Assembly: GCA_019449595.1 (NCBI GenBank)
Contig: JAGRPL010000001.1
Span: 1-64,000, forward strand
Source: Rhodoferax sp.
GTDB lineage: Bacteria; Pseudomonadota; Gammaproteobacteria; Burkholderiales; Burkholderiaceae_C
Direction: 5' to 3'
Length of the DNA: 64,000 nt
The notes under the pieces were generated by a model, which was not told where the DNA came from, searched no databases, and was given only the letters and a program-made list of their open reading frames with translations. A program made the position numbers and the translations under genes. This document shows, in pieces, positions 4,161 to 59,939 of this stretch; position 1 is the first letter of the stretch, and every line of letters begins with the position of its first letter.

Positions 4161-5321
4161 ATGTCCGCTCCCGACCAAACCCTGTTGCTCACCCCGCTGA
4201 ACGCCCTGCACCTCGAACTGGGCGCCCGCATGGTGCCGTTTGCCGGCTACTCCATGCCCGTGCAGTACCCCGCCGGCCTGATGGCCGAGCACCACCACAC
4301 GCGCAATGCCGCCGGCCTGTTCGACGTCTCGCACATGGGCCAGCTGCGCCTGGTCGGCCCCGACGCGGCAGCCGCCTTCGAAACCCTGATGCCGGTGGAC
4401 GTGATCGACCTGCCGGTGGGCAAGCAGCGCTACGGCCTGCTGCTGACCGACGAGGGCACCATCATCGACGACCTGATGTTCTTCAACAAAGGGAACAATG
4501 AGATCTTCGTCATCGTCAACGGCGCCTGCAAGGTGGGTGACATTGCCCACATCCAGGCCAAGATCGGTGCCCGCTGCCAGGTCATCCCCATGCCCGAGAT
4601 GGCACTCTTGGCCCTGCAAGGCCCGCAGGCCGTCACCGCCCTGTCGCGCCTGGCGCCGGGCGTGGAAAAACTGGTGTTCATGACCGGTGGCCATTTCACC
4701 GTGGATACCGGCACGCAGAAGATCGACGTCTTCCTGACCCGCAGCGGCTATACCGGTGAAGACGGTTTCGAGATTTCCGTGCACGAATCGCAGGCCGACG
4801 CCCTGGCCCGCGCCCTGCTGGCCCAGCCCGAGGTCAAGCCCATCGGCCTGGGCGCCCGCAATTCGCTGCGCCTGGAAGCCGGCCTGTGCCTGTATGGCAA
4901 CGACATCGACACCACCACCACCCCGGTGGAAGCCAACCTGCTGTGGGCCATGCAGAAGGTCCGCCGCGCCGGTGGCGCACGCGAAGGCGGCTTCCCAGGC
5001 GCTACAAAAATACTAGCTGCTCTCGCAGAATCCACGGGCTCTGCAGCTCCAAAAGGCAGCAGAAAACGCGTAGGTCTGGTGGCGCTGGAGCGCGTGCCCG
5101 TGCGCGAGCACACCGAGCTGCAGGATGGCCAGGGCAACAAGATCGGCGAAGTCACCAGCGGCCTGCTGGGCCCCACCATCGACAAGCCGGTGGCCATGGG
5201 CTATGTGGACGCGGCATTCAGCGCCCTGGGAGCCCAGGTGGTGGCGGTGGTGCGCGGCAAGCCGGTGCCCATGGTGGTGAGCGTCATGCCCTTTGTGCCC
5301 ACCCGCTACTACCGGGGTTGA
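4161..5321 (+). CDS. gcvT: Glycine cleavage system T protein (aminomethyltransferase)
   Basis: T-protein of glycine cleavage, 386 residues. It transfers the aminomethyl carbon from lipoylated GcvH to tetrahydrofolate, releasing ammonia. The N-terminal folate domain (about 10-265) shows LFDVSHMGQ, SGYTGEDGFEI and the RNSLRLEAGLCLYG block; the C-terminal domain (about 300-380) shows KRVGLVALERVPVRE. Residues 281-298, between the domains, are encoded by a short dispersed repeat and have no counterpart in the usual protein, so this copy is longer than normal there. The start has a GAGGAAA ribosome-binding site. First gene of gcvT-gcvH-gcvP-sdaA under the glycine riboswitch. Confidence 0.97.
   Translation: MSAPDQTLLLTPLNALHLELGARMVPFAGYSMPVQYPAGLMAEHHHTRNAAGLFDVSHMGQLRLVGPDAAAAFETLMPVDVIDLPVGKQRYGLLLTDEGTIIDDLMFFNKGNNEIFVIVNGACKVGDIAHIQAKIGARCQVIPMPEMALLALQGPQAVTALSRLAPGVEKLVFMTGGHFTVDTGTQKIDVFLTRSGYTGEDGFEISVHESQADALARALLAQPEVKPIGLGARNSLRLEAGLCLYGNDIDTTTTPVEANLLWAMQKVRRAGGAREGGFPGATKILAALAESTGSAAPKGSRKRVGLVALERVPVREHTELQDGQGNKIGEVTSGLLGPTIDKPVAMGYVDAAFSALGAQVVAVVRGKPVPMVVSVMPFVPTRYYRG
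5001..5054 (+). repeat. Dispersed 54-bp repeat inserted in frame in gcvT
   Basis: The copy opens with GCTACAAAAATACTAGC and continues through CTCGCAGAATCCACGGGC to CTCCAAAA. It lines up with the intergenic copies at 25456 and 12044 and with the coding copies at 7078 and 58677. Its length is a multiple of three and it is read as ATKILAALAESTGSAAPK. It sits in the linker between the two GcvT domains. The order of bases is the family pattern: ATAGC-like box, TCGCA box, ACGGGC box, CCAAAA end. Confidence 0.75.
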
Positions 5322-5415
5322 TCACCCCCAACCGGTTTTTTGACGCCCGGCGCGGCTACAGTTGCGCCTGGCAGGCAGTTCATCTTTTTTTCCCTATTTA
5401 TTTCAGGAGTTTTCC

Positions 5416-5787
5416 ATGACCATCAAGTACACCCCCGACCACGAATGGCTCCAGGTTGAAGGCGACAACGCCACCGTCGGCATTACCCACCACGCCCAGG
5501 ATGCGCTGGGCGACGTGGTGTTCGTGGACCTGCCCGAAGTGGGCGCCACCGTGGAAGCCAAGGCCGTTGCCGGCGTGGTGGAGTCGGTGAAGGCCGCGGC
5601 CGACGTGTACATGCCCGTCACCGGTGTCATCACCGAAGTGAACGAAGCCCTGCGCGCCGACCCGTCGCTCGCCAACAGCGACCCGCTGGGCGCTGGCTGG
5701 TTCTTCAAGGTCAAACTGTCCAACCCCAGCGAACTCGACGCGCTGATGGACGAAACCAGCTACACCGCCTTCTCCGCCAACGCCTAA
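5416..5787 (+). CDS. gcvH: Glycine cleavage system H protein
   Basis: 123-residue lipoyl carrier that shuttles the aminomethyl group between GcvP, GcvT and the dihydrolipoamide dehydrogenase. The lipoylated lysine lies in the standard ESVKAAADVYMPVTG motif (about residue 63), followed by SDPLGAGWFFKV. Length is typical of the family. The start has a CAGGAG ribosome-binding site seven bases upstream. The 94 bases separating it from gcvT contain no gene or clear terminator, so co-transcription is expected. Confidence 0.98.
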   Translation: MTIKYTPDHEWLQVEGDNATVGITHHAQDALGDVVFVDLPEVGATVEAKAVAGVVESVKAAADVYMPVTGVITEVNEALRADPSLANSDPLGAGWFFKVKLSNPSELDALMDETSYTAFSANA

Positions 5788-5853
5788 CGCCCCGGCCTCC
5801 TGGGCCGCGCCCTGAACCCGCGCGCGCCCGGCCCCACCCAAAGCCCGAACGCC

Positions 5854-8760
<2,907 letters not shown>

Positions 8761-8788
8761 CCCAGCGCCCACCCCACCAGGAGCCGCC

Positions 8789-10177
<1,389 letters not shown>

Positions 10178-10195
10178 AGGTTTTGGGTGCGCTGG

Positions 10196-10251
10196 TAAAA
10201 TAGGCCTCCAGCGCCCGCAAAACATGCGCAGATAGCTATTAAATCAATAGC
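10196..10251 (-). repeat. Dispersed repeat copy between sdaA and queE
   Basis: A full copy on the minus strand and the cleanest match to the family pattern: GCTATTGATTTAATAGC, then TCTGCGCA, GCGGGCGCTGGAGGCC and a T-rich end. It fills most of the gap between sdaA and queE. I see no ribosome-binding or terminator function for it. Confidence 0.8.
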
Positions 10252-10282
10252 ACGCGCGCCACCCCCACGCACCACACCGCCC

Positions 10283-10918: not shown

Positions 10919-10929
10919 CCCTCTCTGTT

Positions 10930-12015: not shown

Positions 12016-12043
12016 CGCCTTCGCCGGTTCCGGCAAAAAATTT

Positions 12044-12097
12044 GCTACTTATTTGATAGCTGTCTGCGCAGCAACTACGGGCGTATCAGTCCGTTTT
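12044..12097 (+). repeat. Dispersed repeat copy between queD and the DODA gene
   Basis: Starts GCTACTTATTTGATAGC, then TGTCTGCGCAG, ACGGGCG and a CCGTTTT end. It fills the gap between two convergent genes and stops four bases before the stop codon of the minus-strand gene. Confidence 0.75.
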
Positions 12098-12101
12098 GCA
12101 C

Positions 12102-12899
12102 TCAATTCAGCGCCATAGCATCCATGGCCAGCATGCCGTACATCACCTCGCGGCTGAGGTAGGTGGGCCGAGCAGCCTCCCCGGCGGCACCCAGCGCAAA
12201 GAACAGCGGCAGGAAGTGGTCCTCCGTGGGGTGCGCACGGTGCGCGTGCGGGGCCAGGCTGCGGTAGTCCAGCAGCGCCGGCGTGTCGCCTCGCTCCAGG
12301 GCGGCTTCCACCCAGCGGGCAAACTCGGTCACGTACGGCGCCACCTGCTGGTCGCCACCGAAGAATTCGCCCAGGTTGTGCGTGATGGACCCGGATCCCA
12401 TCACCAGCACGCCGCTGGCGCGCAGGCTCTGCAGGGCCGCACCCAGCGCGTACACCTGCCGCGGGCCCCAGGCCACCGGCAGGGCCACCTGCACCACGGG
12501 CACATCGGCCTGGGGAAACATGTGCATCAGCGGCACCCAGGTGCCGTGGTCCAGGGGGCGCTTGTCGTCGGCCTGGGCGGCAATGCCAGCCGCCTGCAGC
12601 AGGGCCAGCACCTCCTGCCCCAGCGCGGGGTTGCCCGGTGCCGGGTACTGCAGTTCGTACAGCGCGGCGGGGAAACCACCGAAATCGTGCCAGGTCTGCG
12701 GCTGCGCCGTGGTCATGACCGTGGGCGTGCGCGCCATCCAGTGCGGCGACAAAATCACCACGCCGCGCAGCGCGGGCACGTGCGGCAGGGTCTGCGCCCA
12801 GGCGTGCAGCGCGGGGCCGGTCTCGCCCGGCTCCAGGGCGAACAGGGGCGCACCGTGGGAAACAAACAGCGAAGGCAGCACAGCAGGGGTATGAGACAT
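12102..12899 (-). CDS. Extradiol ring-cleavage dioxygenase of the DODA/YgiD type
   Basis: 265-residue class III extradiol dioxygenase (LigB fold), related to 4,5-DOPA dioxygenase and E. coli YgiD. Expected metal ligands and catalytic histidines are seen in LFVSHGAPL, ILSPHWMART, LDHGTWVPLMHM and HPTEDHFLPLFFA. The physiological substrate of this family in bacteria is usually unknown. The start at 12899 is preferred because AAAGGA stands eight bases ahead; an ATG three codons upstream has no room for a ribosome-binding site. Convergent with queD. Confidence 0.9.
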   Translation of the reverse strand: MSHTPAVLPSLFVSHGAPLFALEPGETGPALHAWAQTLPHVPALRGVVILSPHWMARTPTVMTTAQPQTWHDFGGFPAALYELQYPAPGNPALGQEVLALLQAAGIAAQADDKRPLDHGTWVPLMHMFPQADVPVVQVALPVAWGPRQVYALGAALQSLRASGVLVMGSGSITHNLGEFFGGDQQVAPYVTEFARWVEAALERGDTPALLDYRSLAPHAHRAHPTEDHFLPLFFALGAAGEAARPTYLSREVMYGMLAMDAMALN

Positions 12900-14112: not shown

Positions 14113-14130
14113 CACGGCACGCCGACCGCC

Positions 14131-22388: not shown

Positions 22389-22399
22389 GCACCACCCGT

Positions 22400-22428
22400 G
22401 CTACTGTTTTTATAGCGCATCACGCAAT
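22400..22428 (+). repeat. Partial dispersed repeat at the 3' end of yihY
   Basis: GCTACTGTTTTTATAGC followed by CATCACGCAAT matches the first half of the family in length and box order. Read on the minus strand it supplies the last codons of yihY (about LRDAL) and its TAA stop. Confidence 0.55.
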
Positions 22429-23627
22429 GAAGTCGCCGGCCAGTTGCCGGTTTTCCAGAATTTTTCGGTCACCGCATTGCGCGCCAGCAGCAGGGTCTGC
22501 ACCAGCGGCTCCAGCGGTGTGCGCTGCGGGTCGATCAACAGCACGAAGCGGGCTTCCGGACCGGGTTCGGTGGCCGTGCTGAGCTGGCCCATCCAGTCCA
22601 GGGCCATCAGCGCCTCCAGCACCGGTTCCAGCCGCAGTGCATCCACCTGCAATGCCGCGCACAGCTGCCCCAGCGTCAGCCCTTTCTCGCCGCGCTGGCG
22701 CCCGCCGTCGAGCGCGCGCAGGACCTCCAGCGCCAGCTGGAATGGGCCGCCCTGCGTCAGGCGGCGCCGCAGGCCGCCGTCGATCAGGCTCGGCAGATAG
22801 GCCGTCAGCGCCGCGCCCAGCAGCACAATGACCCAGGCCACGTAGATCCAGACCAGCAGGATCGGCACCGTGGCAAACGCCCCGTACACCACCGAGTAGG
22901 TTGGCACCGAGCTGAGGTAGACGGCCAGCGCCTTCTTGGCCAGCTCCATGCCGGTGGACACGAAAAAGCCGCCCATCCAGGCGTGGCCCCAGCGCACAGT
23001 GGTATTGGGTACATAGCGGAACATGGCCGCCATGCCCGCAGCCACCAGCACGTACTGCAGCACGTTGAGCACCAGCGCCACGCCCCCGGGCAAGGCCCCT
23101 ACCAGACCTTTGGAAGCCGACAGCGCGTACGACGTCATGCTCAGGCTCACCCCCAGCAGCAGAGGCCCCAGTGTGAGGGCCGCCCAGTAGATCAGCACGC
23201 GCTGGGCAAACGGGCGCGGCTTGCGCACGCGCCAGATGCTGTTGAGCGTGCGGTCAATGGTGAAGATCAGCGCCAGCGCCGTGCCCAACAGGGCCCCCAG
23301 GCCCACCGCGCCCAGCCGGCTGGCCTGGCCTGCAAACTGGTTGAGGTAGCCCAGCACCTGGCGCGCAATGTTGTCGGGCACCAGGCTCTGGATCAGCCAC
23401 TTCTGCAGCACGTCCTGGAACTTGGCGAACATGGGAAAGGCCGTGAACACCGCCAGCGCCAGCGTGATGAAGGGCACCAGGGCAATGGTGGTGGTGAAGG
23501 TCAGGCTGCTGGCGGTCAGGCCCAGCCGGTCTTCGCGGAAGCGCTCGCGCAGGGTCTGCAGCGCGTGAAACCATGGCACATGGACGACATCCTGCAGCCA
23601 GCCCTGTAAACGTTGTAGGAATTGCAT
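22410..23627 (-). CDS. yihY: YihY/BrkB-family inner-membrane protein
   Basis: 405-residue membrane protein of the YihY family (formerly annotated ribonuclease BN). Family blocks are RFREDRLGLTASSLTFTTTIALVP, FTIDRTLNSIWRVRKPR and WMGGFFVSTGMELAKKALAVYL, spread over about six transmembrane helices. The last 100 residues form a soluble cytoplasmic winged-helix-like tail. The function is not established. The final residues and stop lie in a repeat fragment. Divergent from the DUF2069 gene, starts 21 bases apart. Confidence 0.92.
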   Translation of the reverse strand: MQFLQRLQGWLQDVVHVPWFHALQTLRERFREDRLGLTASSLTFTTTIALVPFITLALAVFTAFPMFAKFQDVLQKWLIQSLVPDNIARQVLGYLNQFAGQASRLGAVGLGALLGTALALIFTIDRTLNSIWRVRKPRPFAQRVLIYWAALTLGPLLLGVSLSMTSYALSASKGLVGALPGGVALVLNVLQYVLVAAGMAAMFRYVPNTTVRWGHAWMGGFFVSTGMELAKKALAVYLSSVPTYSVVYGAFATVPILLVWIYVAWVIVLLGAALTAYLPSLIDGGLRRRLTQGGPFQLALEVLRALDGGRQRGEKGLTLGQLCAALQVDALRLEPVLEALMALDWMGQLSTATEPGPEARFVLLIDPQRTPLEPLVQTLLLARNAVTEKFWKTGNWPATSLRDAL

Positions 23628-23648
23628 GGCCGCTATGATGCCACCGAC

Positions 23649-24047
23649 ATGAACACACCGATCCACACCGTCCAACGCTCCCGCTGGCTCGCCGTCGCCA
23701 GCCTTCTGGGCCTGATTCTGCTGGCCCTGGGCTGGGAGCTGTACTGGGCGCCACTGCGCCCGGGCGGCTCGTGGCTGGCGCTCAAGGCGCTGCCACTGTG
23801 CGTGCCGCTGGCCGGCCTGCTGAAGAACCGCCTCTACACCTACCGCTGGGTCAGCCTGCTGGTGTGGCTGTATTTCATCGAGGGCGTGGTGCGCGCCTGG
23901 AGCGACAAGGCGCCGGGCAACGCCCTGGCGCTGCTCGAAATCGCGCTGTGCCTGCTGCTGTTCACGGCTTGCGTCTGGCACGTGCGCACCCGCCTGGGGA
24001 GCCGCAAGCACCCCCGTTCCCCAGAGACCCCGCTTCCCGCACCATGA
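23649..24047 (+). CDS. DUF2069 membrane protein
   Basis: 132-residue membrane protein of the DUF2069 family with about four hydrophobic helices (SLLGLILLALGWELYWAP, LPLCVPLAGLLKNRLYTYRW, LALLEIALCLLLFTACVW). The YTYRWVSLLVWLYFIEGVVRA stretch is the conserved core. No function is known. Its stop overlaps the next start as ATGA, so translation of the FAD enzyme is probably coupled to it. Confidence 0.85.
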   Translation: MNTPIHTVQRSRWLAVASLLGLILLALGWELYWAPLRPGGSWLALKALPLCVPLAGLLKNRLYTYRWVSLLVWLYFIEGVVRAWSDKAPGNALALLEIALCLLLFTACVWHVRTRLGSRKHPRSPETPLPAP

Positions 24048-25471
24048 CCACACCCCACCCCGTCCTTGAAGCGCTGCGCCAGATCGTGGGCGCGGCCAAC
24101 GTGTTGACCGAGGGCGACCTCAGCGCCTGGGAGCTGGACTGGCGCAAGCGCGTGCACGGGCGCGCACTGGCCGTGGTGCGCCCGGCCTCCACGGCGGAAG
24201 TGGCCGCCGTGGTGAAAGCCTGCGCGCAGGCTGGCGTGAGCATGGTGCCCCAGGGCGGCAACACCGGCATGGTGGTGGGCTCCACCCCCGACACCAGCGG
24301 CACCCAGGTGGTGCTGAGCCTGCAGCGCATGAACCAGGTGCGCGTACTCGACGGCGCCAACCTCACCGTCACCGTGGATGCCGGCTGCGTGCTGCAAAGC
24401 CTGCAGGAAGCCTGCGAGCGGGCCGGCTTTCTGTTCCCCCTGAGCCTGGCCTCCGAAGGCAGCTGCACCATTGGCGGCAACCTGGGGACGAACGCGGGCG
24501 GCACGCAGGTGGTGCGCTACGGCAACACGCGCGAGCTGTGCCTGGGCCTAGAGGTGGTCACGCCCCAGGGCGACATCTGGGACGGCCTGACCGGCCTGCG
24601 CAAGGACAACACCGGCTACGACCTGCGCCACCTGATGATCGGCTCCGAGGGCACGCTGGGCGTCATCACCGCCGCCACCATGAAGCTCTACCCGCTGCCC
24701 GTCTCGCAGCTCACCGCGTTTGCCGCCGTACCTTCGCTGGAAGCGGCGGTGGAGTTGCTGGGCCTGGCGCACCGGCACCTGAGCGCCGGCCTGACCGGCT
24801 TCGAGGTGATGGGCCGGTTCGCCCTGAGCCTGGTGACCCGGCACTTCCCGCAAATCAAGGTGCCGTTCCAGGACAGGGACTGCCCCTACTGCGTGGTGCT
24901 GGAAAACTCCGACCAGGAGTCCGAAACCCATGCCCGCGAGCGCTTCGAGCGCCTGCTGGAAGCCGCCCTGGAGCAGGGCTGCGTGCTGGATGCCGTGGTG
25001 GCCGAGAGCATCACCCAGGCGCGCCAGCTCTGGCACATCCGCGAGAGCATTCCGCTGGCGCAGGCGCAAGAGGGGCTCAACATCAAGCACGACATCTCGA
25101 TTGCCGTCTCGCGCATCCCCGAATTCGTGCGCAGCACCGATGCCCTGCTGGCGCAGCAGTTCCCCGGCGCGCGCCTGGTCAACTACGGCCACTTGGGCGA
25201 CGGCAACCTGCACTACAACGTGCAGGCCCCCGAAGGCAGCGACGCCGAAGCCTTCCTGAAAAACCAGGAGGGCGCCGTCAATGCCCTGGTGTACGAACGG
25301 GTGGACCAGTTCCGCGGCTCGATCTCGGCCGAACACGGCATTGGCAGCCTCAAGCGCGGCGAGCTGCAGCACCACAAGTCACCCGTGGCGCTGTGCATGA
25401 TGCGCGCCATCAAGCAGGCGCTGGACCCGCACAACCGCATGAATCCGAACCGGGTGCTATCAATTGAATAG
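24044..25471 (+). CDS. FAD-linked oxidase of the D-lactate / D-2-hydroxyglutarate dehydrogenase type
   Basis: 475 residues. The N-terminal PCMH FAD-binding domain (about 40-220) shows MVPQGGNTGMVVGSTP, GCTIGGNLGTNAGG with the flanking SEGS, and IGSEGTLGVIT. The C-terminal FAD-oxidase domain contains NYGHLGDGNLHYNVQ (metal-site histidines) and SISAEHGIGSLKRGEL. It most likely oxidises a D-2-hydroxyacid and passes electrons to a flavoprotein or quinone, possibly to the ETF/ETF-QO system; the exact substrate is not readable. The last codons and stop (LSIE-TAG) fall inside a dispersed repeat copy. Confidence 0.92.
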   Translation: MTTPHPVLEALRQIVGAANVLTEGDLSAWELDWRKRVHGRALAVVRPASTAEVAAVVKACAQAGVSMVPQGGNTGMVVGSTPDTSGTQVVLSLQRMNQVRVLDGANLTVTVDAGCVLQSLQEACERAGFLFPLSLASEGSCTIGGNLGTNAGGTQVVRYGNTRELCLGLEVVTPQGDIWDGLTGLRKDNTGYDLRHLMIGSEGTLGVITAATMKLYPLPVSQLTAFAAVPSLEAAVELLGLAHRHLSAGLTGFEVMGRFALSLVTRHFPQIKVPFQDRDCPYCVVLENSDQESETHARERFERLLEAALEQGCVLDAVVAESITQARQLWHIRESIPLAQAQEGLNIKHDISIAVSRIPEFVRSTDALLAQQFPGARLVNYGHLGDGNLHYNVQAPEGSDAEAFLKNQEGAVNALVYERVDQFRGSISAEHGIGSLKRGELQHHKSPVALCMMRAIKQALDPHNRMNPNRVLSIE

Positions 25472-25509
25472 CTGTCTGCGCAGTATCTGCGGCGTCCGGC
25501 AACCAAAAA
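25456..25509 (+). repeat. Dispersed repeat copy supplying the stop codon of the FAD oxidase gene
   Basis: Full 54-bp copy: GCTATCAATTGAATAGC palindrome, TGTCTGCGCAG box, GCGGCG and an AACCAAAAA end. The gene's final codons CTA-TCA-ATT-GAA-TAG are bases 2-16 of the element. The following small gene starts ten bases after it. Confidence 0.8.
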
Positions 25510-25518
25510 GGCACTGAA

Positions 25519-25932
25519 ATGACCCTGCTTCGCCTACTCTGTTGTGTGGCCCTCGCACTACTGGCCGGCGGCGCCGCCGCGCAGCAACAGCCGTGGTCCT
25601 TCGTGCAGGCGGCGGGCGGCCTGCGGCTGGGCAAACCGGTGCCCCGACCCACCGGCTGGGTACTTCCCGTGGACGCCGATGTCAGTGGCCTGAGCACCAT
25701 CACGGCACGCCCCACCGCCGTGAACCCGGCTCTGGTGTGCAGCGAAACGCGGGCGGCGCTGGAGGGGCAGGCGATCTACCTCACCCTCATCACCCGCAGT
25801 CCGGGCTCGGGCGGCGCATCCCGCTGCCCCCCCGTATTCATCGCCAACACGCTGGCCGGCCGGTACACCGTCTTCTACCGATTTGCCGGCGAGGCGCCTG
25901 TGCGGCTGGGCGAGGTGACGCTGTCGAAGTGA
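25519..25932 (+). CDS. Small secreted protein of unknown function
   Basis: 137 residues, not recognised. A signal peptide is clear (LLRLLCCVALALLAGGAAAQ), so the mature protein of about 115 residues should be periplasmic. It has two cysteines (VCSETR and SRCPPVF) that could form a disulfide and a repeating beta-type pattern ending GRYTVFYRFAGEAPVRLGEVTLSK, suggesting a small beta-sandwich. It sits just after the repeat element and converges on the malic enzyme gene. Confidence 0.65.
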   Translation: MTLLRLLCCVALALLAGGAAAQQQPWSFVQAAGGLRLGKPVPRPTGWVLPVDADVSGLSTITARPTAVNPALVCSETRAALEGQAIYLTLITRSPGSGGASRCPPVFIANTLAGRYTVFYRFAGEAPVRLGEVTLSK

Positions 25933-28786: not shown

Positions 28787-29392
28787 ATGTCAGGACACGG
28801 ATTCCACGTACACGGCCCCCACGACCACGCGCTGGAGCACGCGGCCCAGGGCGGCGGCGACCATGGACACGGACACGGCGAAGACGCCAAGATGACCAAC
28901 CAGATCGCGCTGTTCACCGCCATCATCGCCACGGTGGGCGCCCTTTTCGGCTACATGGGCGGCGCCACGCAGGCCAACGCCGGGCTGTACAAGAACAACG
29001 CGGCCATCAAGAAAACCGAAGCCTCCAACCAGTGGAACTACTTCCAGTCCAAGAGCACCAAGCAGTCGCTGGCCGAAATGAGCCGCGACCTCGCCCCCAA
29101 GGAAGACGACAAGGCCAAGTACCAGGCCAAGGTGGACCGCTACGAGAAGGAAAAGAACGAGATCAAGGCCGTGGCCGACAAGCTCGAAGCCGAGGCCACC
29201 GAATGGGACCACCAGAGTGACGCGCAGATGCACCAGCACCACCGCTGGGCGCAGTCCACCACCGTGCTGCAGGTCGCCATTGCACTGGCGGCCATCGCCC
29301 TGCTGACCAAGAAGAAATGGCTGGAGTACGCCATGTTCGGCGCTGGCGGCATTGGCGTGGCCGTGGGCGCGCTGGCTCTGCTCCACATTTGA
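28787..29392 (+). CDS. DUF4337 family membrane protein with a histidine-rich N-terminus
   Basis: 201 residues. The first 34 residues hold about ten histidines (GHGFHVHGPHDHALEHAA, GDHGHGHG), which could bind metal. Next come a hydrophobic segment (IALFTAIIATVGALFGYMGG), a charged coiled-coil region of about 90 residues (DDKAKYQAKVDRYEKEKNEI) and two C-terminal helices. The core fits the DUF4337 family, which has no known function. It begins one base after folA. Its TGA stop lies in a fragment of the dispersed repeat, immediately followed by a TAG. Confidence 0.82.
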   Translation: MSGHGFHVHGPHDHALEHAAQGGGDHGHGHGEDAKMTNQIALFTAIIATVGALFGYMGGATQANAGLYKNNAAIKKTEASNQWNYFQSKSTKQSLAEMSRDLAPKEDDKAKYQAKVDRYEKEKNEIKAVADKLEAEATEWDHQSDAQMHQHHRWAQSTTVLQVAIALAAIALLTKKKWLEYAMFGAGGIGVAVGALALLHI

Positions 29393-29415
29393 TAGCAATC
29401 TGCGCAGATTCCACA
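29388..29415 (+). repeat. Partial dispersed repeat at the end of the DUF4337 gene
   Basis: TTTGATAGCAATCTGCGCAG matches the middle of the family and contains the 14-bp palindrome AATCTGCGCAGATT. It provides the TGA stop of the upstream gene, with an adjoining TAG. The 5' and 3' ends of the element are missing. Confidence 0.55.
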
Positions 29416-30242: not shown

Positions 30243-30299
30243 GCTATTAATTCAATAGCAGCGTACGCACCGTCCACGGTGCGTACCCGGTCATTTGCC
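30243..30299 (+). repeat. Dispersed repeat copy with a 10-bp perfect hairpin between xthA and ald
   Basis: Starts GCTATTAATTCAATAGC. Bases 30263-30286 then form a perfect stem, GTACGCACCG pairing with CGGTGCGTAC around TCCA, and the element ends with a CATTTG stretch. It begins directly after the xthA stop and ends at the ald stop, so it may act as a bidirectional transcript end, although no T-run follows. Confidence 0.7.
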
Positions 30300-30301
30300 A
30301 C

Positions 30302-31417
30302 TTATTCCAGCAGGCTGTCGGCGCTGACGTAGGCCAGACCCAGGTCGTGCGCCACGGCGGCGTAGGTGACGTGGCCTTCGCACACGTTCAGGCCATGGCG
30401 CAGGTGCACATCCTCGCGCAGCGCCGCCTTCCAGCCCCGGTTGGCCAGCGCGACGGCGTGGGCTATGGTGGCGTTGTTCAGCGCAAAGGTCGACGTACGG
30501 GCCACGCCGCCGGGCATGTTGGCCACGCAGTAGTGCACCACGCCGTCGACCACAAACGTGGGGGCGGTGTGGGTGGTGGCGTGCGAGGTCTCGAAACAGC
30601 CGCCCTGGTCGATGGCCACATCCACCACCACGGCGCCCTTTTTCATGCGGCTGATCATGGCGCGGGTGACCAGCTTGGGCGCCGCTGCGCCGGGCACCAG
30701 CACCCCGCCGATGACCAGGTCGGCGTCGAGCACGGCGTCCTCGATGCTGGCGGCGGTGGAATACAGGGTGCTGATGCGGTTGCCAAACACCAGGTCGAGC
30801 TGGCGCAGGCGGTCCACGTTTTTGTCCAGCACCGTCACCCGCGCGCCCAGCCCCACGGCCATCTGCAGCGCGTTGGAGCCAACCACGCCGGCCCCGATGA
30901 TGGCCACGTGCGCCGGAGCCACGCCCGGCACGCCACCGAGCAGCACGCCGCGCCCCCCGTGGGCAATTTCCAGGTGCGTGGCGCCGGCCTGGATGGCCAT
31001 GCGCCCCGCCACCTCGCTCATGGGAGCCAGCAGCGGCAGACCGCCGCCGGGGCCGGTGATGGTCTCGTAGGCGATGCACACCGCCCCGGACGCGATCAGC
31101 GCCCGGGTCTGCGCGGGGTCGGGGGCCAGGTGCAGGTAGGTGTAGAGGATCTGGCCGGGACGCAGCAAGGCGCACTCCACCGGCTGCGGCTCCTTGACCT
31201 TGACGATCATCTCTGCCCGCTCGAACACCGAAGCGGCCGTGTCCGTCACCACGGCACCGGCGGCCAGGTACTGCCCGTCGTCCAGGCCGATGGCGGCGCC
31301 CGCATCCCGCTGCACCAGCACCTGGTGGCCGTGGGCCACCAGTTCGCGGACGCTGGCCGGTGTCAGGCCGACGCGGTATTCATGGTCCTTGATTTCTTTC
31401 GGAACGCCGATGCGCAT
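30302..31417 (-). CDS. ald: Alanine dehydrogenase
   Basis: 371 residues; interconverts L-alanine and pyruvate plus ammonia with NAD. Signatures: [30 protein letters not shown] (substrate lysine), [10 protein letters not shown] (catalytic histidine), [20 protein letters not shown] (NAD site) and [16 protein letters not shown]. Length matches the family. A GGAGG site precedes the ATG. Together with sdaA and malic enzyme it is one of several pyruvate-forming enzymes in this window. Confidence 0.97.
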
Positions 31418-38202: not shown

Positions 38203-38952
38203 TCAGGCCCCGTGCTGGATGCTCTCGAGGTCCGCCGGGCTGAGCCAGCGCCATTGCCCGGGTGCCAGATCGTCGGGCAGACGCAACCCGCCAATTTGCG
38301 AGCGGTGCAAGGCCTCCACCCGGTTGCCGACCGCGGCCAGCATGCGCTTGACCTGGTGGTACTTGCCTTCGGTCAGCGTCAGGCGCAGGTGGTGGGTGTC
38401 CACAGCCTCGCAGGCGGCGGCGCGCACGGGCTTGGGGTCGTCATCCAACACCACGCCCTCCAGCAGCCGCTGCACCTGGCGCTCGTCCAGCGCGTGCTTG
38501 GTCGTGACCTCGTACACCTTGGGAACATGGTGGCGTGGCGAACTCATGCGGTGGATGAACTTGCCGTCGTCGGTCAGCAGCAGCAGCCCGGTGGTGTCCT
38601 GGTCGAGCCGGCCCACCGCCTGCACGCCCTGCACCGCCGCCTTCTGCGGGCGCAGCCGCAAGGGCGACGGCAGCAAGGTGTAGATACTGGGATAGGTCGA
38701 CGGCTTTTGCGAGCACTCGGTGGCCGTGGGCTTGTTCAGCATCACGTAGGCCTTCTCGTGGTACGGCCAGTCCACGCCCTGGACCCGGAAACGCAAGCCA
38801 TCCGCTACAAATTCCATAGCTGCCTGCGCAATGGTTTCGGGCGCTTCCGCGTTATTTTCCGTATAAACCTGCACCAGACCCTGCTGGATCAGGCCGGCAC
38901 ACACGCGCCGCGTGCCAAAGCCCTGCGAATAAAGAATGTCCTGTAACTGCAT
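38203..38952 (-). CDS. RsuA/RluB-type pseudouridine synthase carrying a repeat-derived segment
   Basis: 249 residues. An N-terminal S4-like RNA-binding segment (1-45) is followed by the synthase domain with the catalytic aspartate in AVGRLDQDTTGLLLLT and the downstream LTEGKYHQVKRMLAAVGNRV. It probably modifies 16S rRNA (RsuA branch). Residues about 32-50 (ENNAEAPETIAQAAMEFVA), linking the S4 part to the synthase domain, are encoded by a reverse-oriented copy of the dispersed repeat and look unlike the family. Confidence 0.92.
   Translation of the reverse strand: MQLQDILYSQGFGTRRVCAGLIQQGLVQVYTENNAEAPETIAQAAMEFVADGLRFRVQGVDWPYHEKAYVMLNKPTATECSQKPSTYPSIYTLLPSPLRLRPQKAAVQGVQAVGRLDQDTTGLLLLTDDGKFIHRMSSPRHHVPKVYEVTTKHALDERQVQRLLEGVVLDDDPKPVRAAACEAVDTHHLRLTLTEGKYHQVKRMLAAVGNRVEALHRSQIGGLRLPDDLAPGQWRWLSPADLESIQHGA
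38804..38859 (+). repeat. Dispersed repeat copy inside the rsuA homologue
   Basis: Plus-strand order GCTACAAATTCCATAGC, TGCCTGCGCAAT, TCGGGCGCTTCC and ATTTTC follows the family pattern. Its start is nearly identical to the gcvP copy. The host gene reads through it on the opposite strand, without a stop codon. Confidence 0.72.
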
Positions 38953-49350: not shown

Positions 49351-49727
49351 TGGTGGAGCTGGGGGGATTTGAACCCCCGTCCGCAAGCCTTCTTCGAACA
49401 GTTCTACATGTGTAGCCGTCTGATTTGAGTCTCGCCTTTTACATCGCGCAGTGGCACGCTATGCAAAACGCCAGCAACCTATTTTCTCGATCTGCCCTAA
49501 GTTACCCAAGGCAAACCCAGCCGAATGAAGTTACCCCACAGCCTGGACAGCTTGCGCCACCCTTGCCCAGCCTATCGGCTTGCTGTTGTGAGGCTCACGC
49601 GCAATTAAGCGGCGAGTGCGAAACGTTCGTCGTTTGCAGTTAGTTTTTTTCTGCGGTTTTACGAGGTGACAGAACCTCGACATGCCCTGCTGCGCGTCCG
49701 AACCCACGTCGAAACCAGTGCAGCCCC
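49351..49727 (-). ncRNA. ssrA: Transfer-messenger RNA
   Basis: 377-nt single-chain tmRNA. The tRNA-like 3' end carries GGGGGTTCAAATCCCCCC (T-arm) and encoded CCA; the 5' end GGGGCTG pairs with CAGCTCC to form the acceptor stem, and the D-arm region GGTTTCGACGTGGG is standard. The resume codon GCA and tag frame at 49605-49637 encode A-NDERFALAA followed by TAA, a proteolysis tag that matches betaproteobacteria of this family. With SmpB it rescues stalled ribosomes. Confidence 0.98.
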
Positions 49728-51130: not shown

Positions 51131-51174
51131 GTTGCAATTATGGCCAAACGGCAAACACCGTTTGCGAGGGGCAA

Positions 51175-51203: not shown

Positions 51204-51224
51204 GATGGGCTTGCGCCTGTCGAA

Positions 51225-51845: not shown

Positions 51846-52077
51846 GATTTTCCCTTTGCGTAACAAACAGCAGCAACGCTGCGAATAATCGGACGACGCC
51901 CACCATGGCTACCATTTTGAGCGCTTGGCCTATTGTGCCATAGCTAATCTCAATTTATGAATACCCACAATGGCCAGCCCAGCCCCTGGGGACGTATATC
52001 AGGCTGAATGTTGCCCGCAAGCCACATCTCGTGGGCCGTAGAATCACGGGTTGTCCCAGACCCAGGCGCATCCATCC

Positions 52078-54717
52078 ATGACCCAGTTCGCAAAAGAAAC
52101 CCTGCCCATCAGTCTCGAAGAGGAAATGCGGCGCAGCTACCTTGATTACGCCATGAGCGTGATCGTGGGCCGTGCCCTGCCCGATGCGCGCGACGGCATG
52201 AAACCGGTACACCGGCGCGTGCTGTTTGCCATGCACGAGTTGAACAACGACTGGAACCGGGCCTACAAGAAGTCCGCCCGTATCGTGGGTGACGTCATTG
52301 GTAAATACCACCCGCACGGCGACAGCGCGGTGTATGAAACCATCGTGCGCATGGCCCAGGATTTTTCCCTGCGCCACATGCTGGTGGATGGCCAGGGCAA
52401 CTTCGGTTCGGTCGACGGAGACAACGCGGCAGCCATGCGTTACACCGAAATCCGCATGTCCAAGATCGCCCACGAACTGCTGGCCGACCTGGACAAGGAA
52501 ACGGTGGATTTCGGCCCCAATTACGACGGCAGCGAGCAGGAGCCGCTGGTCATGCCGGCCCGGTTTCCCAATTTGCTGGTCAACGGGTCTTCGGGCATCG
52601 CGGTGGGCATGGCCACCAACATCCCCCCCCACAACCTGAACGAGGTGGTCGATGGCTGCCTGCACTTGCTGCGCAACCCGCAAGCCAGTGTGGACGAGCT
52701 GATGGAAATCATTCCGGCGCCGGACTTCCCCACCGCCGGCATCATTTATGGCATCAGTGGCGTCAAGGATGGCTACCGCACCGGTCGTGGTCGCGTTGTC
52801 ATGCGTGCCAAGTGCCATTTTGAAGACATCGACAAGGGCCAGCGCCAGTCCATCATCGTTGACGAGCTGCCCTACCAGGTCAACAAGAAGACGCTGCAGG
52901 AGCGCATGGCCGAACTGGTGCACGAGAAGAAACTCGAAGGCATCAGCCACATCCAGGACGAGTCCGACAAGTCCGGCATGCGCCTGGTGATCGAACTCAA
53001 GCGCGGCGAAGTGCCCGAGGTGGTACTCAACAACCTGTACAAGCAGACCCAGCTGCAGGACACCTTCGGCATGAACATGGTGGCCCTGGTCAACGGCCAG
53101 CCCAAGTTGTGCAACCTCAAGGACCTGCTCGAAGTCTTCCTGGAGCACCGGCGCGAAGTGGTCACCCGGCGCACCATCTTCAACCTGCGCAAGGCCCGCG
53201 AACGCGGCCACGTGCTCGAAGGCTTGGCAGTTGCCCTGGCCAACATTGACGATTTCATCCGCATCATCCGGGAATCGCCCACCCCGCCGGTGGCCAAGGT
53301 GGAACTGATGAACCGCCCCTGGGACAGCAAGCTGGTGCGCGAAATGCTCACCCGCACGCGCACCGACGGCGGCGTGGTGAATGCCGACGATTACCGCCCT
53401 GACGGGCTGGAGAAGGAATTCGGCATGGGCGCAGACGGCCTGTACCGCCTGTCCGAGACCCAGGCCCAGGAAATCCTGCAGATGCGCCTGCAGCGCCTGA
53501 CCGGGCTGGAGCAAGACAAGATCGTCGCCGAATACAAAGAGGTGATGGCCGAGATCGAGGACCTGCTGGACATTCTGGCCAAGCCCGCACGCGTGTCGAC
53601 CATCATCAGCGAAGAGCTCACCGCCATCAAGACCGAGTTCGGTCAGAGCAAGCTGGGTGCACGCCGCAGCCTGGTTGAGCACTCCTCGCACGACCTGAGC
53701 ACCGAAGACCTGATCACGCCCACCGACATGGTGGTGACCCTCAGCCACAGCGGCTACATCAAGAGCCAGCCGCTGAGCGAGTACCGTGCCCAGAAACGCG
53801 GCGGACGCGGCAAGCAGGCCACCGCCACCAAGGAAGACGACTGGGTGGACCAGCTCTTCATTGCCAATACGCACGACTACATCCTGTGCTTCTCCAACCG
53901 GGGCCGCCTGTACTGGCTCAAGGTCTGGGAAGTGCCGCAGGGTTCGCGCGGTTCGCGCGGGCGCCCCATCGTGAACATGTTCCCGCTGCAGGAAGGCGAG
54001 AAGATCACCGTGGTGCTGCCGCTCACCGGCGAGAAACGCAGTTTTCCCGCCGACCAGTACGTGTTCATGGCCACCAGCATGGGCACCGTCAAGAAGACGG
54101 CGCTGGACGAGTTCAACAACCCGCGCAAGGGCGGCATCATTGCCGTCAACCTGGATGACGGCGACTACCTCATCGGCGCTGCCCTCACGGACGGCCAGCA
54201 CGACGTGATGCTGTTCAGCGACGGCGGCAAGGCCGTGCGCTTTGACGAGAACGACGTGCGCCCCCTGGGCCGCAACGCACGCGGCGTGCGCGGCATGATG
54301 CTGGAAGACGGCCAGGGCGTGATCGCCATGCTGGTTGCCGAAGACGAGCAGCAAAGCGTGCTGACCGCCACCGAAAACGGCTACGGCAAGCGCACCAGCA
54401 TCACCGAATACACCCGCCACGGCCGCGGCACCAAGGGCATGATCGCCATCCAGCAGTCCGAGCGCAACGGCAAGGTGGTTGCTGCCACGCTGGTGCATGC
54501 AGACGACGAAATCATGCTGATCACCGACAAGGGCGTGCTGGTGCGCACCCGCGTCGCCGAGATCCGCGAGCTCGGCCGTGCGACCCAAGGTGTCACCTTG
54601 ATCGGTCTGGACGAGGGCTCCAAGCTCAGCGGCCTGCAGCGCATCGTGGAAAACGATGCCAATGCAGCCGGGGACGAGGCTTCCGGCGAGGACGACGGCG
54701 AGGCCAGCGCCACCTGA
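52078..54717 (+). CDS. gyrA: DNA gyrase subunit A
   Basis: 879 residues, type II topoisomerase subunit. Active-site tyrosine Y122 in [11 protein letters not shown]; the quinolone-resistance region reads [15 protein letters not shown], so S83 is standard and position 87 (E. coli numbering, which coincides here) is Glu rather than Asp. The C-terminal DNA-wrapping domain keeps the GyrA box in [10 protein letters not shown], and the six-bladed repeats follow; an acidic tail (EDDGEAS) ends the protein. The ATG at 52078 matches the family start [17 protein letters not shown]; a TTG nine codons upstream is possible. First gene before the serC supraoperon. Confidence 0.98.
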
Positions 54718-54732
54718 TTGCTCTCTTTTTCA

Positions 54733-54765
54733 TAGCTACCCGCGCACAATGTGCGCGGGCCATCC
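54733..54765 (+). repeat. Partial dispersed repeat with a 9-bp perfect hairpin between gyrA and serC
   Basis: TTTCATAGCTACC matches the family. Arms CCCGCGCAC and GTGCGCGGG around AAT form a perfect stem at 54739-54759. It begins about 15 bases after the gyrA stop. The stem has no T-run, so it is not a classical terminator. Confidence 0.6.
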
Positions 54766-54789
54766 ACGTATTTGACTCAGAAAATCCTG

Positions 54790-55917
54790 ATGCAGCGTCC
54801 TTTCAATTTCTCCGCAGGCCCCGCCACCATTGCCCCGGAAGTGCTGGCGCAAGCCGCGGCCGAAATGCTGGACTGGCCGGATGCCAGCGGTCAGCGTTGT
54901 GGCATGGGCGTGATGGAGATGAGCCACCGCGGCAAGGAATTCCAGTCCATCTACACGCAGGCCGAAGCCGACTTGCGGGAGTTGCTGGCCGTTCCGGCGC
55001 ACTTCAAGATCCTGTTCATGCAGGGTGGCGGGCTGGCGGAAAACGCCATTGTTCCGCTCAACCTGGGCGGCATGCGGGCCACACCGGGGTTTCAGGGCAC
55101 GGCCGACTTTGTCGTCACCGGTAGCTGGAGCGACAAGTCGCAAAAAGAAGCCCGCAAGTACTGCCAGGTCAACATTGCTGCCACTAACCAGGCCGACGGT
55201 CACACCCGCATTCCCGACCCTGCCACCTGGAAGCTGAGCGACCACGCCAGCTATGTCCACCTGTGCACCAACGAAACCATCAACGGTCTGGAGTACCACA
55301 CCCTGCCCGACCTGAAGGCGCTGGGCTCCAGCGCCGAGCTGGTGATCGATTTTTCCTCCCATGTAGCCTCCCGGCCCGTGGACTGGAGCCGCGTCGGCCT
55401 GGCCTTCGGCGGCGCCCAGAAGAACCTGGGACCGGCGGGCCTGACCCTGGTGGTGGTGCGCGAAGACTTGCTGGGCCACGCCCTCCCCATCTGCCCCAGC
55501 GCCTTCAACTACAAGACGGTGGCGGACAACCAGTCCATGTACAACACGCCGCCCACCTATTCCATCTACATTGCCGGCCTGATTTTCCAGTGGCTCAAAC
55601 GCCAGGGAGGGGTAGCGGCCATGGAAGCACGCAACGTGGCCAAGGCCCGGTTGCTGTACGAAGCCATCGACACCTCCAGCTTCTACGTCAACAAGGTTCA
55701 TCCCGACTGCCGCTCGCGCATGAACGTGCCCTTCTTTTTGCGCGACGAGTCGCGCAACGACGCTTTCCTGGCCGGCGCCAAGGCGGCCGGCCTGCTGCAA
55801 CTCAAGGGCCACAAATCGGTCGGTGGCATGCGCGCGAGCATTTACAACGCCATGCCCCTGGAGGGCGTGCAGGCCCTGGTGGGCTACATGCGCGAATTCG
55901 AGCGCACCAGCGCCTAA
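54790..55917 (+). CDS. serC: Phosphoserine aminotransferase
   Basis: 375 residues; PLP enzyme of serine and pyridoxal phosphate synthesis. [50 protein letters not shown] and the PLP lysine in [14 protein letters not shown] are family hallmarks, and the C-terminal [18 protein letters not shown] is intact. A slightly long segment ([15 protein letters not shown]) lies before the central region but fits the family. It starts the serC-pheA-tyrA-aroA/cmk run, an order known from many proteobacteria. Confidence 0.98.
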
Positions 55918-55953
55918 GCCCAACCCATCGCCCCACGCAGCGCTCTACCCGCC

Positions 55954-57036: not shown

Positions 57037-57057
57037 TACGGCCCCTCAGGAAACCCT

Positions 57058-57933
57058 ATGTTTGAACAGCTTGGTTTGATTGGATGCGGTTTGATGGGGG
57101 GCTCGTTTGCCCTGGCCCTCAAACGCGCAGGTCTGGTCAAACGCGTCGTGGGCTACAGCAAGTCGCCCAGCACCACGGAACGCGCCCGCGCCATGGGAGT
57201 CATCGATGTGGAGGCCCCCTCGGCCCTGTTGGCCGTCTCCGGCGCCGACATCGTGCTCATTGCCGTCCCTGTGGCGGCAACCGAAGCCACCTTCAAGGCC
57301 ATCAAGCACCTGGTGACCCCTAGCATGCTGGTGATGGACGTGGGCTCCACCAAACGCGACGTGATCGATGCCGGCCGGCGCGCCCTGCGCGAACAGATCG
57401 GCTCATTTGTTCCGGCCCACCCCATTGCCGGCAAGGAAGTGTCCGGCGTCGAGCACGCCGACGCCGACTTATACCGGGGCCGTCAGGTCATCATCACGCC
57501 CATCGAGCGCACCCTTACCGCGCAGCTGCAAAAGGCCGTGGACCTGTGGACCGCGCTGGGGTGCCGGGTGCTGAAAATGTCTCCCGAGCAGCACGATGCC
57601 GCCTTTGCCGCCGTCAGCCACCTGCCCCACCTGATCGCTTTTGCGCTGATGAACGCCATCTCGGGCCAGCCACAGGGCAAGGACTACCTCTCGCTGGCAG
57701 GCCCGGGGTTTCGGGACTTCACCCGCATTGCCGCCAGTGACCCCAAGGTGTGGCGCGACATTCTGGCCTCCAACCGGGAAGAGCTGCTGGCGCAGTCCCA
57801 GATCTTCCAGCGCAACCTCCACGCCCTGGAACTGATGATTGCCAGTGGCAACGCCGATGCCCTCGAAGGCCTGCTGGAGCAGGCCAGCAACACCCGCGCC
57901 CACTGGAGCATGACCTCCAAGCACAACGCCTAA
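57058..57933 (+). CDS. tyrA: Prephenate dehydrogenase
   Basis: 291 residues; oxidatively decarboxylates prephenate to 4-hydroxyphenylpyruvate for tyrosine. The nucleotide site is [46 protein letters not shown] and [13 protein letters not shown] are characteristic. There is no chorismate mutase or ACT domain, so it is the simple form. Its TAA stop overlaps the aroA/cmk ATG as TAATG. Confidence 0.97.
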
Positions 57934-59939
57934 TGTTTTCTACCGCATTCCTGGATCTGCCACCGCTGCGCCACGCCAGCGGAACCGTCACCCTCCCCGG
58001 CTCCAAAAGCATTTCCAACCGGGTGCTGCTGCTCTCGGCCCTGTGCGACGGCACCACCACGGTCCACGACCTGCTCGACTCCGACGACACCCGCGTCATG
58101 CTGGACGCCCTGCGCGTGCTGGGCTGCGGCATTCGCCAGGACGGCTCCACGGTGCACATCGACGGCCTGGGCGGCCGGCTCAGCACCCAGCAGGCCAAGC
58201 TCTTCCTGGGCAATGCCGGCACCGCCATGCGCCCGCTGACCGCCGCACTGGCCGTGCTGGGCGGCAACTTTGAGATGGGCGGCGTGCCGCGCATGCATGA
58301 GCGCCCCATTGGCGACCTGGTGGACGCCTTGCGCCAGCTCGGCTGCCAGATTGACTACCTCGGCAACGACAGCTACCCGCCGCTGCACATTGGCCGCCCC
58401 CAACTCCAGCTCGACGCACCGATTCTGGTACGCGGTGACGTGTCAAGCCAGTTCCTGACGGCCCTGCTGATGGCCCTGCCACTGGTAGCGCAGCAGGACA
58501 TCGTGATCGACGTGGTGGGCGAGCTGATTTCACGCCCCTACATCGAAATCACGCTGAACCTGCTGGCACGCTTTGGCGTCCAGGTCCGGCGCGATGGCTG
58601 GCAACGTTTCACCATTCCCGCCGGCTGCCGCCTGCGCTCGCCAGGCGCCATCCATGTGGAAGCCGACGCCTCCTCTGCTAGCTATTTCATAGCGCTTGGC
58701 GCAATTGTCACGGGCGCTGGAAGCCAAAATAGCATCAAGATTCTGGGTGTGGGTGCAGACTCCATCCAGGGCGACATCCGCTTCATGGACGCCGCCCAAC
58801 AGATGGGCGCGCACATCACCAGCGGCCCCAACTGGCTGGAGATCCGGCGCGGAAGCTGGCCGCTCAAGGCCATTGACCTGGATTGCAACCACATTCCCGA
58901 TGCGGCCATGACCCTGGCCGTCATGGCGCTGTTCGCCGACGGCACCACCACGCTGCGCAACATTGCCAGCTGGCGTGTCAAGGAAACCGACCGCATTGCC
59001 GCCATGACCGCGGAGCTGCGCAAGCTGGGCGCCCGGGTCGTGGAGGGTGCCGATTTCATCCAGGTCACGCCCCCGGCCACGACCGACGACTGGCGCGCTG
59101 CCAGCATCCACACATACGACGACCACCGCATCGCCATGTGCTTCTCGCTGGCGGCCTTCAATCCGGCCGCGCTGCCGGTGCGCATTGAAGACCCGAAGTG
59201 CGTGGCCAAGACCTTCCCGGACTACTTCGAGGCCCTGTTTTCCGTCGCCCACACCCCGCAGGCCGACATTCCCGTGCTCTGCGTGGACGGCCCCACGGCC
59301 TCCGGCAAGGGCACGCTGGCGGTGGTGCTGGCGCAAAAGCTGGGTTACCACTTCCTGGATTCCGGCTCCCTGTACCGCATCACGGCGCTGGCGGCCCTGC
59401 GCGCCGGACTGGGGCTCGATGGCGGCAGTGAAGCCGCCATTGCCAGCCTGGTCCCACGTCTGCAGATCCGTTTTACCGGGGGGCGGGTGCTGCTGGACGG
59501 GGATGACGTCAGCGACGCCATCCGCACCGAGGAAGCCGGCATGAACGCCTCCAAGGTATCGGCCCTGCCCCAGGTCCGCGCGGCATTGGTCGACCTGCAG
59601 CACAGCTTTCGCCAGTTACCGGGTCTGGTAGCCGACGGGCGCGACATGGGCACCGTGATCTTCCCGCAGGCGCCACTGAAGGTGTTTCTGACGGCCAGCG
59701 CCGAGCGGCGGGCCGAGCGGCGCTATAAGCAGTTGATTTCTAAGGGAATTTCCGCTACACTCCCATCTCTTCGCGCGGACTTGGAAGCACGTGACGCCAG
59801 GGATTCCTCCCGGGCCGTAGCGCCACTCAAACCCGCAGAAGACGCCCGGTTGCTGGACAACTCGGATTTGACGGTTGAAAAATCGGTCGATCTGGTGTTG
59901 GACTGGTGGCAGAGCAAACAGCCTTTCAAAACCGTTTGA
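57933..59939 (+). CDS. aroA-cmk: Fused 3-phosphoshikimate 1-carboxyvinyltransferase / cytidylate kinase
   Basis: 668 residues. EPSP synthase (1 to about 437): [53 protein letters not shown] and [14 protein letters not shown], then an [15 protein letters not shown] linker. Cytidylate kinase (about 446-668): P-loop [38 protein letters not shown] and [16 protein letters not shown]. It joins the shikimate step after AroK with CMP phosphorylation; no stop or ribosome-binding site lies between. Residues 249-266 are encoded by a copy of the dispersed repeat overlapping DASSASYF. Translation is coupled to tyrA. Confidence 0.97.
58677..58731 (+). repeat. Dispersed repeat-like segment inside aroA
   Basis: GCTAGCTATTTCATAGC is followed by GGCGCAATTGTCACGGGCGC and GGAAGCCAAAAT, the family's complete box order over 54 bp without gaps. 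The reading frame relative to the element is the same as in gcvT and gcvP. Because ASYF is conserved in AroA generally, the first 12 bases may be ancestral and the match there coincidental. Confidence 0.6.

Follow-up and report, generated by a model that had tools for sequence, protein, structure and literature searches.

The first 64,000 nucleotides of contig JAGRPL010000001.1 of a Rhodoferax sp. (assembly GCA_019449595.1), referred to here as the window, contain eleven copies of a partly palindromic repeat, some of them within genes, which raises the question of what the repeat is and how it came to occupy such positions. From the sequence comparisons made here, it is best read as a recognition site of about 67 bp in double-stranded DNA, dispersed through the genome and predicted to evolve in place. 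A preliminary description of this stretch had listed the eleven copies, and all of them were present in the 64 kb. A covariance model using sequence alone (R1) was trained on 28 genome copies; its conserved core is partly built in, because the training copies were mostly picked by the core pattern. Run over both strands of the window with filters off, R1 detected nine of the eleven at E <= 3.7e-7. The remaining two, at 5001 (E 0.005) and 29379 (E 0.01), were weak alone, and both have an orthologous copy at the corresponding place in the relative G007. No further strong copies were detected in the window by R1; the sole other match with E < 0.1 was the reverse reading of the palindrome at 30243, and the next independent match was at 20711-20738 on the minus strand (E 0.12). 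The starts previously given as 29388 and 54733 were corrected to 29379 and 54719, and the minus-strand copy at 10196 proved real with a revised extent, from 10251 down to about 10194.

The preliminary description had named comparison with control sequence as the check on the repeat, and matches far exceeded the reversed controls. The strict core GCTAYNNNNTNNATAGCTGNNNGCGCA gave 66 matches in the own genome (G000, 3.37 Mb) and 0 for the reversed pattern, and 400 kb of G007, searched at E < 0.01, contained 53 copies (about 1 per 8 kb) compared with 0 in the reversed sequence. R1 gave at least 150 matches in the own genome, all at E <= 2.8e-6; these 150 are the first-look candidates scored out of 1522, and the own-genome count is therefore a floor. 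The strict core was found in 18 of 37 genomes of the same genus (own included) and in none of 24 genomes from other families of the order. Of the 397 genomes surveyed in the GTDB-type family, 114 contained a looser core; they represent 45 of 126 genera, and reversed controls gave 0 to 4. The distribution of the looser core was very patchy, one genome reaching 298 copies where others of its genus have none. The strict core was also present in 24 stretches of IMG/VR. The earlier statement that the repeat is of high copy number, lies both in and between genes and is common to many other genera of the family was thus borne out by the 150-match genome count and the 397-genome survey. The 10-to-1 strand bias of the window is local, since neighbouring copies lay on the same strand in 66 of 138 cases genome-wide (68.8 expected) among the 150 own-genome matches.

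The anatomy of the site was derived from 46 own-genome and 34 G007 copies. Information spans model positions 2-70 and is near background outside, so that the unit is about 67 bp rather than the roughly 54 bp proposed earlier. The consensus is GCTAY-NN-WWT-YN-RTAGC-TG-NNN-GCGCA (preceded by T in the profile), followed by a second half near ACGGG(C/G)G-CT...GGCC and then by two A/T-rich tracts about 10 bp apart (positions 56-58, 83-100% A/T; positions 66-68, 71-98% A/T). The second half is near YACGGG in both the own genome and G007, and in G007 positions 40-47 spell GGGCGCTA, each at 56-97% (91-97% for 42-45), whereas the own genome is loose there. The CGGGCGC box of the preliminary description is clear in only some window copies, strong in G007 and weak in the own genome. 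The loop positions 12-14 are 97-100% A/T, and in 131 strict copies from two species, selected by a pattern that itself sets the core and the T at the tenth position, 27-mer loop positions 8 and 9 were A or T in 129 and 130 copies, respectively. No loop pair in these 131 copies was significantly above the Watson-Crick expectation. In the first stem of the preliminary description, GCTAC stood opposite ATAGC in 42 of the 131 pattern-selected copies; a conserved RNA-like second stem was not supported. RNAalifold gave only an invariant 4-bp first stem with a covariation of 0. About half of the G007 copies have G for A at position 17, mostly giving GTAGC. Positions 24-26 and 33-47 differ between the own genome and G007, and the NNN before GCGCA is most often TCT in the own genome, compared with CTT/CTC in G034, three species being compared in all. 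Such a profile resembles a double-stranded site that is read by a protein and differs in dialect among species, rather than a folded RNA. A hairpin or RNA element was considered and set aside on the zero RNAalifold covariation, mixed single-strand folds and no loop covariation. As a separate observation, copies in Polaromonas (L202, about 7100-7700, minus strand) keep the first half and have a different second half with the dyad GCCC...GGGC, possibly a genus dialect; second-half dyads are visible in Polaromonas copies.

The origin of the copies was examined within conserved genes by a substitution-not-insertion test modelled on PMC1626085, where the same gap test showed Haemophilus uptake signal sequences (USS) not to be insertions. 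At the five informative coding sites (gcvP, lpxB, aroA, fabD and a TrmH-type methylase), the length changed by 0-6 residues, compared with the roughly 20 residues that a unit-length insertion would add; for polA, dnaX and the pseudouridine synthase, the alignments obtained gave no information at the copy. For gcvP, 43 of 80 fetched loci were aligned, and the protein length through the site equalled that of the window in 34 of these 43 named records, some as distant as Burkholderia and Pseudomonas, and was within 2 residues in the other 9. Alignment with two PDB chains showed gaps of 1 residue at the site. Most motif-bearing gcvP orthologues read GCT-ACN-AAN-TCN-ATA-GCT-GCN-CGC-GCA or close to it, and motif-free ones encode similar residues by other codons; those with the motif mostly have ATA-GCT where others have ATC, ATT, CTG and similar codons, and ATA is rare in G007 (246 of 5285 Ile codons). 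The antisense copy in lpxB showed no gap at its site, the first half of the aroA copy lies on the native DASSASYF motif, and the TrmH-type methylase differs by 4 residues either way at its copy. Since these five sites arose without unit-length insertion, such 'repeats' should not be counted as transposons unseen.

A Rickettsia-type palindromic element (RPE), which inserts in frame and lengthens proteins, would account for the several copies that are in frame in conserved genes, and the copies in gcvT, gcvP and aroA first suggested it. It was rejected by the gcvP codon and length comparisons and the aroA PDB alignment; with a lengthening of about 20 residues at 0 of 5 informative sites (differences 0 to 6), this origin is very improbable. 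Between genes, the gap lengths of seven gene pairs were compared, with G256 (178/153, 67/87, 496/480, 60/59, 103/61 and 75/81) and, for one distant pair, with G028. G256 is nominally motif-free but has decayed copies at orthologous sites, and therefore equal gap lengths there do not discriminate. A partial copy without the first arm was also observed in locus L118 of G007 (581-632), where it begins at the fabH stop codon.

The copies were next compared with one another and followed between relatives. Within a genome, the maximum identity of two copies was 0.77-0.78 (43-46 copies compared per genome). G007 and G476 are 91% identical around gcvP and 6-8% diverged over syntenic 400-kb stretches; a single alignment spanned 48 of 53 and 52 of 54 copies, respectively, and none of these had a gap of more than 2 bases. 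Among the mapped matches, 46 of 51 and 46 of 54 are matches in both genomes, and the other 5 and 8 score between 14.6 and 24.5 bits. Between the window and G007 (about 80% identity), the copy was kept in all six cases with both flanks matched, the other five being without a matching flank. Neither near-identical copies nor empty sites in close relatives were found among the copies compared or followed. The preliminary description had the copies 'spread' from one another through an outside factor or recombination, which does not agree with a similarity barely above that of independent consensus draws, with static orthologous copies and with coding copies that lie on native protein sequence. It had also stated that independence of the aligned copies in each locus would speak against the repeat; the copies do look independently formed, or nearly so, and the motif is real nonetheless.

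These data also bear on an origin as a repeat like the repetitive extragenic palindromes (REPs), once mobilised by a REP-associated tyrosine transposase (RAYT; Y1_Tnp) and now old and domesticated. Like REPs, the repeat is palindromic and of high copy number, and the GTAGC in part of the G007 copies resembles the GTAG tag of REPs (PMC3733652). The own genome has a single Y1_Tnp gene (L031, 1456-2172, plus strand), short gaps between tandem genes are often filled by one copy, and there is a slight excess of similarity among copies. PF01797 was found in 297 of 397 genomes, including 66 of the 72 with at least 10 copies compared with 231 of the 325 others (Fisher P 1.4e-4, phylogeny uncorrected), an association that does speak for such an origin. 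However, six rich genomes have no PF01797 match at E 0.001 (G185 with 152 copies, G388 with 104, G293 with 44 and three with 12-18). In the own genome, the RAYT (C13:86939) has no strong copy beside it, the nearest of the 150 listed matches being at 92472 and 72102, about 5 and 15 kb away. Moreover, unlike REPs, the copies form no near-identical subfamilies and showed no insertion or excision when followed, and an origin in place without unit-length insertion in coding sites is hard to square with transposition. This origin appears improbable. A lone TTGCTATCAATTTTGAT sequence, which resembles half of the first palindrome, was seen 3' of the RAYT-like gene (L031).

Constraint was measured between G007 and G476. 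In 18 intergenic copies (>= 20 bits), the core GCTAY/ATAGCTG/GCGCA showed 0 changes in 289 aligned sites, where about 12 were expected from the intergenic mean of 8.4% (P 6e-6) and about 7 from the flanks of the copies themselves (4.8%; P 0.001), both after halving for ascertainment in G007. Taken together, the results make it very probable that the copies are not products of recent transposition, that those in conserved genes formed mainly by substitution with small indels in some, that the intergenic core is constrained, that the consensus differs between related species as dialects, and that the repeat has decayed in at least one lineage.

Genomic placement was determined in G007 with genes called by a simple ORF (open reading frame) scorer. 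Thirty of the 53 copies were not contained in a called gene, and 23 were inside coding sequence, 13 of these antisense. The midpoints of 27 of the 53 fell in gaps, which make up 12% of bases, and divergent gaps held 4 of these 27 (8.3 expected, P 0.05). Copies wholly inside a gene were restricted in coding phase, with a single phase in 9 of 10 same-strand cases and in 11 of 11 antisense cases. The scarcity in divergent gaps, together with the position of the intergenic window copies, seven of seven of which are within about 30 bp of a stop codon, would suit a transcription terminator or mRNA 3'-end element, and some single copies do fold well (z -5.8 for L013). Against this, five of ten folded single copies had z above -1.5, the RNAalifold stem and the loop do not covary, and the copies occur in both orientations to genes as well as inside coding sequence, so that a terminator function is quite improbable, still more so than the REP-like origin.

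DNA unaligned between G007 and G476 contained 2 of 107 copies, where about 9.3 were expected; by genome, these were 2 of 53 (4.6 expected, P 0.15) and 0 of 54 (4.7 expected, P 0.007), the unaligned stretches including region ends. The 65 strict copies of G007 were evenly spread, with 9, 8, 3, 8, 7, 5, 3, 5, 7 and 10 per tenth of the chromosome. The main rival to the explanation favoured below is that a chromosome-organising or nucleoid protein, in the style of MatP, SlmA or a condensin loader, binds the sites without any role in DNA uptake; the REP/RAYT, RPE and terminator explanations, and the Bordetella/Betaproteobacteria repeat (BRE) described below, fit worse. A nucleoid protein is consistent with the even spread, the few copies in unaligned DNA, the core constraint, the patchy distribution among genomes, and the double-stranded, partly palindromic form with its A/T-only loop and A/T-rich tracts. 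However, there was no obvious enrichment or exclusion at dnaA (0.65 Mb in G007) or opposite it, the strands followed no order along the own genome, 40 of the 65 strict copies of G007 oppose the fork (P 0.08), and hundreds of 67-bp sites kept even in conserved enzymes would, to our knowledge, be unusual for such proteins. We consider this rival rather unlikely; if it did hold, the repeat would be a long, in-place-evolving site of an unknown protein. Minus-strand copies account for 20 of the 21 in one part of G007 (C1, about 1895000-2059000, or 195-358 kb of the stretch analysed), although the strand of the copies varies at random along the own genome. This run prompted consideration of replication polarity, as in FtsK-orienting polar sequences (KOPS) or Chi, which was rejected on the random strand of the own genome and the weak fork bias of G007.

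The in-place origin, dialects, frame limits, intergenic preference and A/T tracts are together features of the DNA uptake sequences (DUS) of Neisseriaceae and the USS of Pasteurellaceae, and on this ground we tentatively favour the interpretation that the site works like those sequences. Fragments carrying the site would be preferred by a DNA receptor on the cell surface, possibly a type IV minor pilin, and recombination of such fragments would keep and spread motif-matching alleles in place. Uptake bias and recombination would in turn give enrichment in the core genome, a preference for intergenic sites and coding frames that tolerate the motif, and dialects, as well as loss of the motif where a lineage no longer has the uptake preference. 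In common with DUS and USS, the repeat has hundreds of dispersed copies, an intergenic preference together with many coding copies in restricted frames, a core accompanied by A/T-rich tracts, decay in a lineage, formation by substitution instead of insertion, and dialects between relatives, which are a described feature of DUS (PMC3630211). It differs in that DUS and USS have cores of 9-12 bp compared with about 67 bp here, in being several times sparser, and in being known from sequence alone.

Candidate receptors were sought with PF16732 (ComP_DUS), the pilin family of the Neisseria DUS receptor, which matched in 59 of 60 genomes and in 0 of 14 controls. The best PF16732 score was higher in 30 motif-rich than in 30 motif-poor genomes (Mann-Whitney P 0.005), and a score of at least 60 bits was reached in 27 of 30 and 19 of 30, respectively (Fisher P 0.03), in comparisons uncorrected for relatedness and with a motif-poor set that includes a few genomes of up to 18 copies and five assigned on the strict pattern alone. 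A comparison of 20 loci (L294-L313; G018 and G332 rows left out) divided the matches into two classes, a PilE-like one ending in LCWP (about 50 bits) and a ComP-like one ending in CW after a motif of the C-G-D/N-F type (mostly >= 60 bits).

Several results weigh against an uptake signal evolving in place. PF16732 also matches in 29 of the 30 motif-poor genomes, and the single matches of the motif-rich G388 and G333 belong to the weaker PilE-like class. ComEC is present in 59 of 60 genomes, rich or poor, and therefore does not explain the patchiness. Known uptake sequences occur at a density of roughly 1 per kb, far above the 53 per 400 kb of G007, and 67 bp is longer than any uptake sequence known to us. 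Constraint is confined to the core, as positions 5-62 of the intergenic copies taken as a whole changed at 4.9% compared with 4.8% in the flanks, and in 20 copies within coding sequence even the core was only weakly constrained (3-6% vs 6.4%). Substitution is not the only process at the coding sites, because the second half of the aroA copy adds 5 residues and 6 residues are added at the fabD copy; the fabH-fabD gap, which contains a partial copy in G007, likewise exceeds that of G256 by about 43 bp (103 bp vs 61 bp). Finally, the mean best match among copies was 0.69-0.70 compared with 0.67 (sd 0.004) in column-shuffled sets, a small but real excess.

We know of no uptake signal in Comamonadaceae or related Burkholderiales, and none was found for Comamonadaceae in the literature searched, which was mostly without subscription journals; nor were the exact motif strings or a function for the motif found there. 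It is possible, if still more tentative than the likeness to DUS and USS itself, that the repeat would be the first DNA-uptake signal of these bacteria: a 67-bp bipartite site with helically spaced A/T tracts, present in dozens of genera with dialects, which would mark self DNA for natural transformation and would have been built up one base at a time, in conserved enzymes as well. Self-recognition would then channel gene exchange across a large group of bacteria from fresh water and soil, and the patchy dialects would record which bacteria could exchange DNA.

Fragments of the motif are already in print without a function (PMC5217627). Among the unexplained pairs of that account, published in 2017, ATAGCT(N)22CAAAAG comes from Polaromonas naphthalenivorans, with 101 of its 125 copies between genes and 18 within genes, and GCTTAT(N)5AAGCG from Acidovorax ebreus; the genome with the most motif pairs was that of Rhodoferax ferrireducens. 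The Polaromonas pair shares the core ATAGCT, a similar copy number and placement and the host family with the repeat; the pairs differ in being reported, in that account, as unexplained statistical pairs without a family-wide survey, a test of origin or a function. In the loci examined, the exact Polaromonas pattern gave 0 matches and the Acidovorax pattern 2 unrelated ones, so that we infer that the P. naphthalenivorans pair belongs to the same family from two copies of the Polaromonas locus L202, in which the second half ends about 22 bases past ATAGCT. BRE is also dispersed in and between genes and was counted in Rhodoferax, Polaromonas, Acidovorax and Delftia (PMC3110155). By its description there, it is set apart by a length of 75-91 bp, a GC content of 69% and tandem arrays at some loci, whereas the present repeat is about 67 bp long, occurs as single copies and has a GC content of 47-57% in the nine strong window copies.

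The positions of the eleven copies in the window are given in the table.

Table. Copies of the repeat in the 64-kb window, with their gene context and R1 E-values.
Position	Strand	Context	E-value	Remarks
5001..5065	+	in gcvT (ORF 4161-5321 +); weak	0.0048	orthologous copy also in gcvT of G007; in G256, a decayed but similar sequence
7078..7141	+	in gcvP (ORF 5854-8760 +), on native protein sequence	7e-8	
10194..10251	-	between serine dehydratase gene (ends 10177) and gene with sub-threshold radical-SAM match (starts 10283)	2.4e-16	genes by Pfam
12041..12114	+	between convergent 3' ends of PTPS-family gene (ends 12015) and LigB-type gene (12102-12899 -)	3.4e-16	
22398..22470	+	at 3' end of minus-strand gene 22410-23666	9e-9	
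25454..25522	+	across stop codon of ORF 24044-25471 +	2e-13	
29379..29415	+	across stop codon of DUF4337 gene (28787-29392 +); weak	0.0097 (29386-29415)	orthologous copy in G007
30243..30310	+	directly after stop codon of exonuclease/endonuclease/phosphatase-family gene (ends 30242), convergent with 30302-31417 -	3.7e-7	
38803..38868	+	antisense in pseudouridine synthase gene (38203-38952 -)	8.6e-15	orthologous copy in G007; PDB alignments obtained stop short of the copy
54718..54786	+	from first base past stop of ORF 52078-54717 + (presumably gyrA) into 5' part of ORF 54772-55917 + (presumably serC)	2.9e-7	orthologous copy in G007
58675..58746	+	in fused aroA-cmk ORF (57933-59939 +), on native DASSASYF motif	8e-12	PDB alignment; orthologous copy in G007

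An Rfam scan of the window at the gathering score matched the repeat to no family and detected only a glycine riboswitch and a tmRNA. The former comprises two tandem glycine aptamers at 3858-4101 on the plus strand, just 5' of gcvT (RF00504), and the tmRNA gene lies at 49351-49727 on the minus strand (RF00023).

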